From Bacteroidia bacterium (GTDB taxonomy: Bacteria > Bacteroidota > Bacteroidia > B-17B0 > Aurantibacillaceae): a stretch of 64,000 nucleotides of DNA. The position numbers and the translations under genes were made by a program. The stretch's first letter is position 1. Each line of letters begins with the position of its first letter. The notes under the pieces are model-generated. The model ran no database searches, was not told the DNA's origin, and saw only the letters and a list, made by a program, of their open reading frames with translations. Positions 1 to 16,641 of this stretch are shown here, in pieces. The stretch lies in NCBI GenBank assembly GCA_016787445.1, contig JAEUTQ010000038.1:1-64000 (forward strand), written 5' to 3'.

Positions 1-3
1 TTT

Positions 4-1266
4 TTATAAAAGCGAATTTAAGATTTGTCCGAACCTGAAAATATCCTCGAAAGAATTATATAAAGGCACAGGTGCACAACGTATTACGTTTGGTTCACGC
101 CAATCCGGAATCACACCGTTTTCGATTAATTTATTGTACAAAGGTTTTCCGTATCCATTCGCAACAATTGAAATCTGACATCCTCTGTTTTCTTTTGGTG
201 TAATAATTTCCAAGCAATCATTTTTTTGCTTGTTCACCTCTCCAACAATAAATTCAAGATAAGCAGTTAACCGCTTGCTTCTTTCCACCAACGCGTCCAT
301 GCCTACTTCATCAAAAATATCTAATGAGGCGCGACATGCTGCCATTGCAAAAATTGGCGCATTACTCATTTGCCATCTTTCAGCCGTTTGCATAGGTACA
401 AATGTTTTGTCCATTAAGAAACGAGTTTTCTTATCATGGCCCCACCATCCTGCAAACATTGGTAAATCTGTATTCTTTAAATGCTTTTGGTGTACAAAGG
501 CTCCGGCAACACTGCCCGGACCGCTATTCAAATATTTATAACTGCACCACGCTGCAAAATCAACACCCCAATCGTGCAGTGCTAATTTTAAATTTCCGGC
601 GCCGTGCGCTAAATCAAATCCTACAATGGCGCCTGCTTTATGTCCGGCTTCCGTAATTGCTTTCATATCGAAAACCTGACCCGTAAAATAATTCACGCCG
701 CCAATCATTACCAGTGCTAACGAATCCTTATTTTTTTCGATCGCCTCATAAATATCTTCATGACGAATGGTATACTCACCTTCTCTCGGTGAAATTTCTA
801 TTAAAGCATCTTCGATAGAATAACCGTGGAATTTTATTTGCGATCGTAAAGCATATTGATCGCTAGGAAACGCCTTTGCCTCACAAAGAATTTTATAACG
901 CTGTTTCGTTGGTCGGTAAAAAGAAACCATCAATAAATGAAGATTAACAGTTAATTGATTCATCATAACTGTCTCTTCAGGAAGAGCCCCGACGATCTTT
1001 GCCATTTTATCGGTAAGAAATTCATGATATGGCATCCATGGATGTTTAGCCAGGAAATGACCTTCCACACCCAACTTCGCCCAATCTTCCAACTCTTGTT
1101 GTATATACGATTGGGTTGTTTTAGGTTGCAATCCCAAAGAGTTTCCCGTGAAATACACTACATCTTGTCCGTTATGTTGTGGAAATAAGAAGCGTTGACG
1201 ATAAACACTTAATTTATCGGCTTTATCACTTTGTTGTGCAAATTCCAAACTATTCATAAAATTCAT
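4..1266 (-). CDS. kynU: Kynureninase
   Basis: PLP-dependent hydrolase that cleaves kynurenine (or 3-hydroxykynurenine) to anthranilate (or 3-hydroxyanthranilate) plus alanine in tryptophan catabolism or de novo NAD synthesis. Family features seen: an N-terminal segment with YFTGNSLGLQPK, the PLP-contact stretch GFDLAHGAGN, and the Schiff-base lysine in SYKYLNSGPG. From the ATG at 1266 it is 420 residues, the usual family length. A longer frame to 1353 would run through the promoter and into hemL, so it is not used; a second ATG lies three codons downstream (1257). No other kynurenine-pathway gene is nearby. It diverges from hemL across a shared palindromic promoter. The stop codon is at 4-6, so the gene is complete. 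Confidence 0.93.
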   Translation of the reverse strand: MNFMNSLEFAQQSDKADKLSVYRQRFLFPQHNGQDVVYFTGNSLGLQPKTTQSYIQQELEDWAKLGVEGHFLAKHPWMPYHEFLTDKMAKIVGALPEETVMMNQLTVNLHLLMVSFYRPTKQRYKILCEAKAFPSDQYALRSQIKFHGYSIEDALIEISPREGEYTIRHEDIYEAIEKNKDSLALVMIGGVNYFTGQVFDMKAITEAGHKAGAIVGFDLAHGAGNLKLALHDWGVDFAAWCSYKYLNSGPGSVAGAFVHQKHLKNTDLPMFAGWWGHDKKTRFLMDKTFVPMQTAERWQMSNAPIFAMAACRASLDIFDEVGMDALVERSKRLTAYLEFIVGEVNKQKNDCLEIITPKENRGCQISIVANGYGKPLYNKLIENGVIPDWREPNVIRCAPVPLYNSFEDIFRFGQILNSLL

Positions 1267-1290: not shown

Positions 1291-1306
1291 CAAAGATATA
1301 TCTTTG
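1291..1306. promoter_or_regulatory. Palindromic divergent promoter of kynU and hemL
   Basis: The 16 bases CAAAGATATATCTTTG are a perfect palindrome. Each half is the Bacteroidota -7 element TAnnTTTG (here TATCTTTG), one facing hemL (1299-1306) and one facing kynU (1291-1298). Predicted transcription starts would lie a few bases outside each end, giving leaders of roughly 20 bases to both start codons. Because the two -7 elements share the centre, RNA polymerase presumably cannot occupy both at once. A TTG that could serve as a -33 element for hemL is at 1271-1273, with longer than usual spacing. Confidence 0.65.
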
Positions 1307-4208: not shown

Positions 4209-5837
4209 TTAATTAATGATGAGTTTTTTAGTGAGAACGAGTTCGTCTTTAGTCATTCGAACTAAGTAGATTCCCTTAGGGTAATTGCTAAAATCTAAAG
4301 CTAAACTAGCCGGTTGGTGATTTAAACTGAAAAGTGATTTTCCTTGCGCATCATAAACTTCTAAATCAAAACCCTCCTCCGGTAATAATCTGAAATTAAC
4401 GATACCCGAACTTGGATTTGGATACATGACAAAATCATCTTCATTTTTAGCAATAACATCCAGTCCGGTGGTATTCAACATTTTTGCCAATAACAAATCA
4501 CCGCTTCCATTACAATTTAAATTAGTAGCACCCAAGCTCACCGACGTACTTGAAAAATAGCCCCCGCAATAAATATTTCCGGCGCCGTCCAAAGCCAAGG
4601 CATTCCAACCATCATCTGTTCCTCCGCCTACGCCGTCCGCCCATAAGGCTGTCCCGGTTGGACTATACGCTACTAAAAAAGCATCGCCCACTCCACCAAA
4701 ACTTAAAGTCTGAGTTCCGAATGAAGCCAGGAAACTGTGATTATGTCCGTTTACATAAATTCGTCCTACCGCATCAACCCCAATACCATAACCGTAATCA
4801 TCGTTATTACCACCCCCACCTTGTGCCCATTGCGAAACACAATTCGAATTGGTTTTAATTACCAACATATCGCGACTACCATAATTACTTAATGTGGATG
4901 TGCCAATCGTTAAACTCGGACTAAAATAATATCCTGTTAGAATAATATTTCCATTGATGTCACGCGTTATTCCGGTTGCTACCTCATCCAGCATGTCTCC
5001 AAACGTTGTTGCAGTTAAAACATTTCCCATGTTATTCAATTTAATCAGAAAAATATCTGCGCTGGCAGGAGACGTGTTGTTAAGCGTAGTGGTACCAACC
5101 GTTAGGCTTGAACTTTTGTACAATCCGGTAACATAAGAATTTCCGGAAGGGTCAACCGTAATCCCATTAGCATTTTCAGCGAGATTATCACCAAAGCTTT
5201 GTGCCCACATTACATTTCCGCTGGCATCCAGTTTAGCAACAAAAGCATCATTGTTTCCGAAAGTGTTTAAAGTAAAAGTTCCCATGGTTAAGGTGGCACT
5301 GTTGTAATAGCCCGTTATCAATACATTACCGCTAGCTTCAACTGCAACTGCATTAGCAACGGTACTTCCGCCATCCCCGAAATTTTTCGCCCACAATATA
5401 TTTCCATTCACATCCATTTTTACAATAAACATGTCACCGAAAGCAGAATTAGTCAAAGTTGTAGTGCCGCAAACCATGCTTGCACTAATGAAACTTCCTA
5501 CAACATACGAATTACCTATAGCATCTATGGCAATAGCATTGGCATTATCATCAAAACCGCCGCCAAAACTTTTTACCCATAATGGATTTCCATTCACATC
5601 AAACTTGGCAACATAAGAATCGTAATTACCATTGTTGGTTAAAGTATATGTGCCGATTGTAAAATTAGAACTGAAATAATAACCACAAGTATAAGATTCG
5701 CCGATGCTATTTACAGCCAGACCTGAAATATTTTCTGAAGCTGTGCTGCCGTGACTTTTTGCCCATTGCCAATTCGGAACTTGTGCATTTGAGAATAAAG
5801 CAATTAAGATTACGATTATGCAGAAGATTTTTCTCAA
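4209..5837 (-). CDS. Secreted SBBP-repeat propeller with T9SS type A sorting domain
   Basis: A signal peptide (MRKIFCIIVILIALFSNAQ) is followed by seven repeats of about 65 residues, each with a W-A-K/Q-S-F-G entry strand and GNSYVTGxY and DAFVAKLDxxGN strands. This is the SBBP beta-propeller repeat, and seven copies suit one closed seven-bladed propeller. The last ~75 residues (from FVMYPNPSSGIVNF to TKKLIIN) form a type A T9SS sorting domain, so the mature protein should be exported by T9SS and released or anchored on the surface. The start is a TTG overlapping the upstream TGA by four bases (TTGA), so translation is probably coupled. Function unknown beyond a surface propeller. Confidence 0.86.
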   Translation of the reverse strand: MRKIFCIIVILIALFSNAQVPNWQWAKSHGSTASENISGLAVNSIGESYTCGYYFSSNFTIGTYTLTNNGNYDSYVAKFDVNGNPLWVKSFGGGFDDNANAIAIDAIGNSYVVGSFISASMVCGTTTLTNSAFGDMFIVKMDVNGNILWAKNFGDGGSTVANAVAVEASGNVLITGYYNSATLTMGTFTLNTFGNNDAFVAKLDASGNVMWAQSFGDNLAENANGITVDPSGNSYVTGLYKSSSLTVGTTTLNNTSPASADIFLIKLNNMGNVLTATTFGDMLDEVATGITRDINGNIILTGYYFSPSLTIGTSTLSNYGSRDMLVIKTNSNCVSQWAQGGGGNNDDYGYGIGVDAVGRIYVNGHNHSFLASFGTQTLSFGGVGDAFLVAYSPTGTALWADGVGGGTDDGWNALALDGAGNIYCGGYFSSTSVSLGATNLNCNGSGDLLLAKMLNTTGLDVIAKNEDDFVMYPNPSSGIVNFRLLPEEGFDLEVYDAQGKSLFSLNHQPASLALDFSNYPKGIYLVRMTKDELVLTKKLIIN

Positions 5838-6292
5838 GCTAAATTAAATTGTTTCAAATGATGTAAAGCATGCTTATGTAACAAATGCAACCATTGCTCG
5901 TAATTAAAATCGCCAAAGAATGGATTCATTACAACAGCATTGGGATTTTTCTTATAGAAATCGACAAAGGATTTGATTTCTCTATCAATTTCTGTAATGG
6001 CCGCCTCTATGCTGAAATTACGTAAGGGCGCAGCCTCTTCTGTCATTAAGGAATTTTTGGTGCCGGGCTTAAACTCCTTATCACTTAAAGCAAAACTTCT
6101 CACTTTCTCCAAAATTGTTTCAGGCGTTTGCAGAGGGTGAGCAACACGTTTCCAGGCTATACCAATAGAATCGGTCATATGTTCTATCATGCCTTGTGGC
6201 GATAAAACACCCCAATTGCCTTTTTCGTTACCGTTTAGTTTTTTAAGAAGAGGGATATATTCCTGAGTGAAGAAGGTTTCTTTATTTGCCAT
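5834..6292 (-). CDS. DinB/DUF1569-like protein
   Basis: Small cytosolic helical protein of 152 residues with no signal peptide. It resembles the DUF1569/DinB four-helix-bundle group: a first His in MIEHMTDSI and a terminal His-rich helix HLLHKHALHHLKQF, which in this superfamily usually bind a divalent metal. Enzymatic activity is unknown; relatives include thiol-dependent transferases. Its stop codon overlaps the TTG start of the SBBP-propeller gene by four bases, so the two are co-transcribed even though their products should lie in different compartments. Confidence 0.7.
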   Translation of the reverse strand: MANKETFFTQEYIPLLKKLNGNEKGNWGVLSPQGMIEHMTDSIGIAWKRVAHPLQTPETILEKVRSFALSDKEFKPGTKNSLMTEEAAPLRNFSIEAAITEIDREIKSFVDFYKKNPNAVVMNPFFGDFNYEQWLHLLHKHALHHLKQFNLA

Positions 6293-16006: not shown

Positions 16007-16641
16007 TTATGCCAAAAAAAGTGATTATAAATTAATACGATACCAAATAGAATTAATGCCGCACCTGTTACGTGATTAATTGTCGACATAATTTTATCAG
16101 TAAGAAACTTTTTGATTTTACCAGCTAAAAACACCTTGAATAATTCAACCATCAATACCAACCCTAATACAATCGAAAAATAAATTATCATTTTTATCAT
16201 TGAATAGTCGAATGTTTTCCCAACAGCAGTAACGTTACCTAACCATAAAAACCACACTGCGGGATTAAACAAGTTCATGAAAAATCCCTTTAATATTAAC
16301 GTTAATGGTGAAGGCACTTTTATCTCAATACTCTCCTCTGATTTTGTTACCGGCTTTTTGAAATAAAATGCTCCGAAAACAATTAAGATAATTCCCGCCA
16401 CAATTCCTGCGAAGCGCTGGTTCTTTTCATCCTGCAAAAAATTAACGGCACCAAAGTGCACCATGGCAATAATAATCATGCAAACAAATAAATCAGAAAA
16501 CACAACGCCAGCTGCTAATAACGCTCCAGGTTTGTAACCATGTTTAATACCGGTATTAATTAATGCAAAAAATGCCGGACCAAACGAAAAGGTCAAAAGA
16601 ATAACAATGATGATGGTTTGATATATGAGACTTAAAATCAA
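16003..16641 (-). CDS. LysE family amino-acid exporter
   Basis: A 212-residue membrane protein with about six hydrophobic segments and the LysE/RhtB signature: an N-terminal FGPAFFALINTGIKHG (the family's G-P-x3 motif), a second helix GVVFSDLFVCMIIIAM, and the loop FFMNLFNPAVWFLWLG, which carries the conserved N-P of the fourth helix. It probably exports an amino acid or related metabolite; the substrate is not predictable. It sits one base after the GH3 gene and overlaps DUF493. Confidence 0.88.
   Translation of the reverse strand: MILSLIYQTIIIVILLTFSFGPAFFALINTGIKHGYKPGALLAAGVVFSDLFVCMIIIAMVHFGAVNFLQDEKNQRFAGIVAGIILIVFGAFYFKKPVTKSEESIEIKVPSPLTLILKGFFMNLFNPAVWFLWLGNVTAVGKTFDYSMIKMIIYFSIVLGLVLMVELFKVFLAGKIKKFLTDKIMSTINHVTGAALILFGIVLIYNHFFWHK

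Follow-up and report, generated by a model that had tools for sequence, protein, structure and literature searches.

We propose that a 16-bp block between the divergent genes kynU and hemL is a deeply conserved core promoter of Bacteroidota type that would work in both directions and serve both genes, a reading to which comparative sequence analysis leads us to assign a probability of roughly 0.7. According to this model, the TAnnTTTG elements of kynU and hemL, of the kind used by the Bacteroidota primary sigma factor, would stand tail to tail with zero bases between them, and a single short block would give rise to both mRNAs, from starts separated by about 25 bp. RNA polymerase would sit on the block in a single orientation at any moment, and at ordinary activity this exclusivity need not make kynU and hemL antagonistic. 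Both elements would be used, from starts near the predicted positions, and no dedicated regulator would be needed.

Table 1. Features of the kynU-hemL region; positions refer to the window, meaning the whole 64,000-nucleotide stretch that was analysed.
Feature	Position	Strand	Remarks
kynU, kynureninase, 420 aa	4..1266	-	TIGR01814 equivalog, 455.8 bits (cut-off 246.4); stop codon at low end
Predicted transcription start, kynU	1286	-	-7 element + 4 nt, as in F. johnsoniae (available text of PMC6847099)
Two abutting, opposed -7 elements, 16-bp block	1291..1306		perfect palindrome in this genome
Predicted kynU -7 element, TATCTTTG	1291..1298	-	fits TAnnTTTG; 32 bp from kynU ATG
Predicted hemL -7 element, TATCTTTG	1299..1306	+	fits TAnnTTTG; 31 bp from hemL ATG
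Predicted transcription start, hemL	1311	+	-7 element + 4 nt, as in F. johnsoniae (available text of PMC6847099)
hemL, glutamate-1-semialdehyde 2,1-aminomutase, 426 aa	1330..2610	+	TIGR00713 equivalog, 565.4 bits (cut-off 527.3)

The block, CAAAGATATATCTTTG, is its own reverse complement over 16 bp (1291-1306) and both of its halves, read outward from the centre, spell TATCTTTG. It lies in an intergenic region of 63 bp (1267-1329), bounded by the kynU ATG at 1266 on the minus strand and the hemL ATG at 1330 on the plus strand, and the original prediction of a perfect palindrome between these two genes, whose names are supported by NCBIfam equivalog models that both score above cut-off, is thereby borne out. 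A single exact copy of CAAAGATATATCTTTG exists in the whole genome (3,771,250 bases scanned), and the window holds no other match at up to three mismatches, for which shuffling gives an expectation of 0.74. Perfect 16-bp palindromes of any sequence occur twice in the window and 16 times in 346,630 further bases of the genome; such a palindrome alone is ordinary, and it is the conservation of this one that is remarkable. The second exact palindrome of the window is TTAATACCGGTATTAA at 16544-16559, and there is no third.

In this genome, TAnnTTTG is concentrated 10-49 bp upstream of genes, and both halves of the block (31 and 32 bp) fall inside this zone. A spacing of 4 nt between the -7 element and the transcription start is reported for F. 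johnsoniae in the accessible part of PMC6847099; with this value the divergent starts are predicted to lie 25 bp apart, and with a 5-nt spacing 27 bp apart. The similar short leaders that had been expected for the two genes hold as a prediction, at about 19 nt for hemL and 20 nt for kynU. At the low end of the window, the first 135 bases of contig C21 from the same genome encode kynU residues 376-420 with 100 % identity (window 1-135), and the start of the window's contig is therefore probably an assembly break with overlap.

Across the class, the pattern CAAAGATATATMTTTG is present in 30 of 395 genomes, compared with two for the reversed control, and 22 of these 30 genomes have it in the kynU-hemL intergenic region. 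The other eight loci comprise one with kynU and a contig end, one in which hemL faces panC, and six elsewhere. The identical 16-bp palindrome was also seen away from kynU and hemL at L143 (G409), near 1501, just before what by eye is a tRNA-like gene. Because a search with CAAAGATATATMTTTG favours carriers of the motif, we made a second collection of hemL upstream regions by hemL similarity alone, which covers 182 genomes from 34 families. It draws on two partly shared sets, 70 relatives out of 100 and all but one (143) of the 144 class genomes whose hemL match reaches E <= 1e-180; the exception is G421, in which a contig end coincides with the start of hemL. The 30 relatives not used had no close or complete hemL or were not retrieved. 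Start codons of hemL and kynU were set by homology, and in some genomes, such as G118, they are misplaced by a few codons. In this collection, kynU is divergent from hemL in 64 of the 182 genomes, representing 21 families, with a gap of at most 150 bp in 56 of the 64.

Back-to-back TAnnTTTG elements that abut exactly (offset 0) are found in 22 of these 64 pairs and in 8 families, a count that ignores relatedness and is unevenly sampled (family f21 gives nine sites and f16 five). The proposal of two opposed -7 elements is thus upheld, in that both halves match TAnnTTTG and the abutting pair is conserved across families. An offset of 10 bp accounts for a further seven pairs in three families, the remaining offsets being 11 bp (two pairs), 12 bp (one), 15 bp (two) and 41 bp (one); in 300 shuffles no offset was seen in more than one pair. 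Allowing degenerate ends adds five near-matches at offset 0 and one at offset 10, with neither arrangement in 29 of the 64 pairs. The three offset-10 families group together in a rough tree built from short protein stretches; offset 10 may have arisen once, and the second offset therefore proves less. In the kynU-hemL pair with the 41-bp separation (L256, G136), the elements CAAAGATA and TATCTTTG stand at either end of an inverted repeat, CAAAGATACATATC / GATATGTATCTTTG, an arrangement that resembles an inverted duplication of the promoter.

At the 22 offset-0 sites, conservation is confined to the 16 bp and stops sharply at the ends of both -7 elements. The inner bases vary (GA..TA in 15 sites, GA..TC in five, TA..AC in one and TA..TC in one), so that the commonest form, CAAAGATATATATTTG, whose inner bases are those of 15 of the 22 sites, is an imperfect palindrome. 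Because of this variation, the conserved feature is, judging from the aligned sites, the abutting pair and not perfect symmetry. For 19 of the 22 sites the hemL element is 17-31 bp away from its gene (50, 58 and 101 bp in the others), and the distance from the block to kynU is 23-33 bp in seven, 50-62 bp in four and 76-1236 bp in 11, so that kynU would need a long leader in these last 11. No strict TAnnTTTG lies closer to kynU in the 12 sites that are more than 60 bp away from it. Short repeat-like insertions resembling gcgtctctgcgagaaa separate the block from kynU in L033, L139, L140 and others; on the hemL side of the block such insertions are hardly ever seen.

The comparison of hemL promoters with and without a divergent gene gives what we consider the strongest evidence for use of the second element. 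A recognisable -7 element is present in 56 of the 118 hemL regions without a divergent kynU, and 14 of the 56 keep CAAA in register. TA is also kept in four of these 14, all of which face another divergent gene: a pantoate ligase (panC, named by Pfam) in G127, a DinB/DUF1569-like protein in G087 (by resemblance) and in G162 (Pfam checked), and in G185 a dehydrogenase subunit, judged from its sequence, 243 bp away. Among the ten without TA, seven have a co-directional upstream gene, two face aroA (one Pfam checked) and one has a divergent gene about 390 bp off. By comparison, the opposing TA is present in all 21 kynU pairs in which CAAA stands in register no more than 60 bp from hemL, a limit that misses G220 and accounts for 21 pairs here as against 22 above. 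Given CAAA, TA is therefore kept in 25 of 28 regions with a divergent gene and in none of seven without (Fisher p 1.8e-5, an optimistic value because all seven non-divergent cases come from one genus). In the family of the present genome, 29 hemL promoters have a -7 element without facing a divergent kynU, and CAAA without TA persists in 10 of them; in genus g7, for example, CAAA stands 8 bp before TATCTTTG and the four intervening bases vary (L041, L044, L053). This persistence suggests that the block matters to hemL itself too, and the argument from divergent genes alone leaves the retention of CAAA in g7 unexplained. The window itself encodes a DinB-like protein at 5837-6292 on the minus strand (PF12867, just under cut-off), and family f28 has a gene for a similar protein divergent from hemL.

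Among relatives of the same genus, kynU is divergent from hemL in five of seven (G001, G002, G005, G006 and G007), and the other two (G003 and G004) are without a close hemL or kynU match. The original prediction had made its case depend on finding the palindrome in close relatives with the same gene order, and on this point the picture is mixed. Both elements are strict in G007, where the gap is 563 bp, and near matches to the block occur in G002, G005 and G006, but the palindrome of G007, CAAATATATAACTTTG, is imperfect and G001 has lost the kynU-side element.

We also searched for the arrangement, and for its parts, as general features of promoters. The G000 and G007 stretches contain 74 divergent pairs, and the only offset-0 pair among them is the kynU-hemL site. 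A general class of back-to-back -7 promoters was considered and set aside: in 20 genomes the relaxed offset-0 pattern occurs at 36 sites compared with 20 for the control, falling to 26 versus 20 without kynU-hemL, and the offset-10 pattern gives 30 versus 38. Likewise, CAAA in register is not a general feature of promoters in the genus, as it was found in 2 of 90 promoters (G000 and G007), both at the kynU-hemL site, and in 0 of 85 once that site is removed. A regulon in g7 did not emerge clearly either; CAAANNNNTATCTTTG was found 38 times across 10 genomes (14 times for its reversed control), and the recurrent place away from hemL that we examined is uninformative because its flanks are conserved too. 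This second site, CAAAGCCTTATCTTTG, recurs with its conserved flanks before a MiaB-like gene, presumably miaB from its translated sequence, in L333, L344, L349, L360, L361 and L341.

Regarding the wider promoter context, the offset-0 sites have no conserved -33 element (TTTG or TTG) outside the 16 bp; in the present genome, the first TTG met upstream of the hemL element begins at a distance of 28 bp, whereas other promoters show a weak TTG peak at 22-23 bp. Since promoters of F. johnsoniae are likewise described as having no evident -33 element in the available text of PMC6847099, a missing -33 excludes little. In the 85 other promoters of the genus, the DNA is AT-rich one helical turn and two turns upstream of the -7 element, where 4-base windows that start 8 and 18 bases before its first T have a mean GC of 0.16 and 0.23 (values reached by 0 and 9 of 2000 rotations, respectively), and a further GC minimum lies near -30. 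For F. johnsoniae, the accessible part of PMC6847099 reports AT-rich motifs at -18 and -28, in agreement with these windows. The partner's CAAA falls in the first AT-rich window when the offset is 0 and in the second when it is 10, a fit that we noticed post hoc. Because of this coincidence, we tentatively consider a possible, if doubtful, extension of our model in which each CAAA/TTTG core would also be the AT-rich tract of the opposing promoter. The two promoters would then support each other, only offset 0 (-18, one turn) and offset 10 (-28, two turns) would be favoured, and hemL would have kept a two-way core while its partner changed (kynU, panC, DinB-like).

Three other explanations of the block have to be weighed. 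The symmetry had originally been read as a possible operator, and a dimeric regulator that bound CAAA-N8-TTTG as an inverted repeat overlapping the hemL promoter could co-regulate kynU. The block is indeed nearly perfectly symmetric, its inner bases are more uniform than TAnnTTTG requires (GA on the kynU side in 20 of 22 sites), and CAAA is kept in the 10 own-family hemL promoters that do not face kynU. Set against this, the commonest form CAAAGATATATATTTG is asymmetric, so that symmetry is not kept in relatives, the halves stand 10 bp further apart in one group of families, and no clear regulon is seen in the 20 genomes (26 versus 20, as above). The operator is thus weakened by both the imperfect palindrome and the offset-10 families, and we regard it as unlikely.

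It is quite unlikely, in our view, that hemL alone uses the block, with the CAAA half serving as an upstream A-tract and kynU starting elsewhere. Such a scheme would be in line with a nearly constant distance to hemL and a distance to kynU that ranges from 23 to 1236 bp, as well as with the persistence of CAAA in seven hemL promoters without a divergent gene. It fits poorly with the opposing TA, which is present in every one of the 21 kynU pairs with CAAA and in none of those seven promoters, and with the lack of any strict TAnnTTTG nearer to kynU in the 12 sites whose distance to that gene exceeds 60 bp. That a common AT-rich sequence was simply inherited without function, through chance and shared ancestry, appears very improbable; the repeated sampling of families (9 of 22 from f21 and 5 of 22 from f16) and the clustering of the offset-10 families in one part of the rough tree speak for it, but the flanks have diverged while the 16 bp were kept in 8 families, and this one place accounts for 22 of the 30 occurrences of the 16-mer among 395 genomes. 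We therefore return to the bidirectional core promoter as the reading that we prefer.

Family matches to tryptophan 2,3-dioxygenase (PF03301) were found in 11 of 13 genomes checked and to 3-hydroxyanthranilate dioxygenase (PF06052) in 12 of 13, the present genome included in both cases, and it is therefore probable that KynU works in the tryptophan-to-NAD route, whose opening step is catalysed by tryptophan 2,3-dioxygenase, a haem enzyme. Since the route's first enzyme needs haem, we would favour joint rather than opposed expression of kynU and hemL, co-expression being just as sensible as opposition, and haem synthesis would be linked with the tryptophan-to-NAD route through the shared block. 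If the block does work in both directions, a paired core that is the sole conserved intergenic DNA across many families would point to selection for two-way initiation in Bacteroidota. Moreover, offset 0, offset 10, swapped partners and a lost partner together form a natural variant set for promoter sharing.

Finally, the block can be compared with promoters of known types. Bidirectional promoters in sigma-70 systems have been described as a by-product of -10 symmetry. At the level of search results, no report on kynU-hemL or on bidirectional promoters in Bacteroidota was found. Promoters of the Bacteroidota primary sigma factor, sigma-ABfr, carry TAnnTTTG at -7, and the block resembles them in that both halves fit TAnnTTTG as well as the revised TAHHTTTG, the predicted leaders are short and the -33 element is weak or absent; in the available text of these reports, sigma-ABfr promoters are described as one-way and back-to-back pairs go unmentioned (PMC7366714, PMC6847099). 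The original prediction had further reasoned that competition between polymerases would lead to reciprocal expression of kynU and hemL. We find no support for this step, as all five bidirectional promoters tested in E. coli were without polymerase competition at basal activity and the partner was repressed only when one direction was strongly activated, according to the accessible part of PMC12825309; by analogy, reciprocal expression may be possible only if one direction becomes strong. As far as the available parts of the work by Warman, Grainger and colleagues go (PMC12825309, PMC10268837), the kynU-hemL block shares with the sigma-70 bidirectional promoters of E. coli and Salmonella a pseudo-symmetric core, perfect here and near-perfect in relatives, divergent starts that are predicted here to lie a short way apart, and a frequent position between divergent genes. 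In Salmonella and E. coli, such promoters are defined by starts 7-25 bp apart, mostly 18 bp, and the 25 bp predicted for kynU-hemL would be at the edge of this definition (PMC10268837, available text). The sigma-70 promoters, as described there, have one shared -10 element, whereas kynU-hemL has two complete abutting 8-bp -7 elements for another type of sigma factor, and, unlike those sigma-70 cases, the kynU-hemL pair is kept at a single locus across families.
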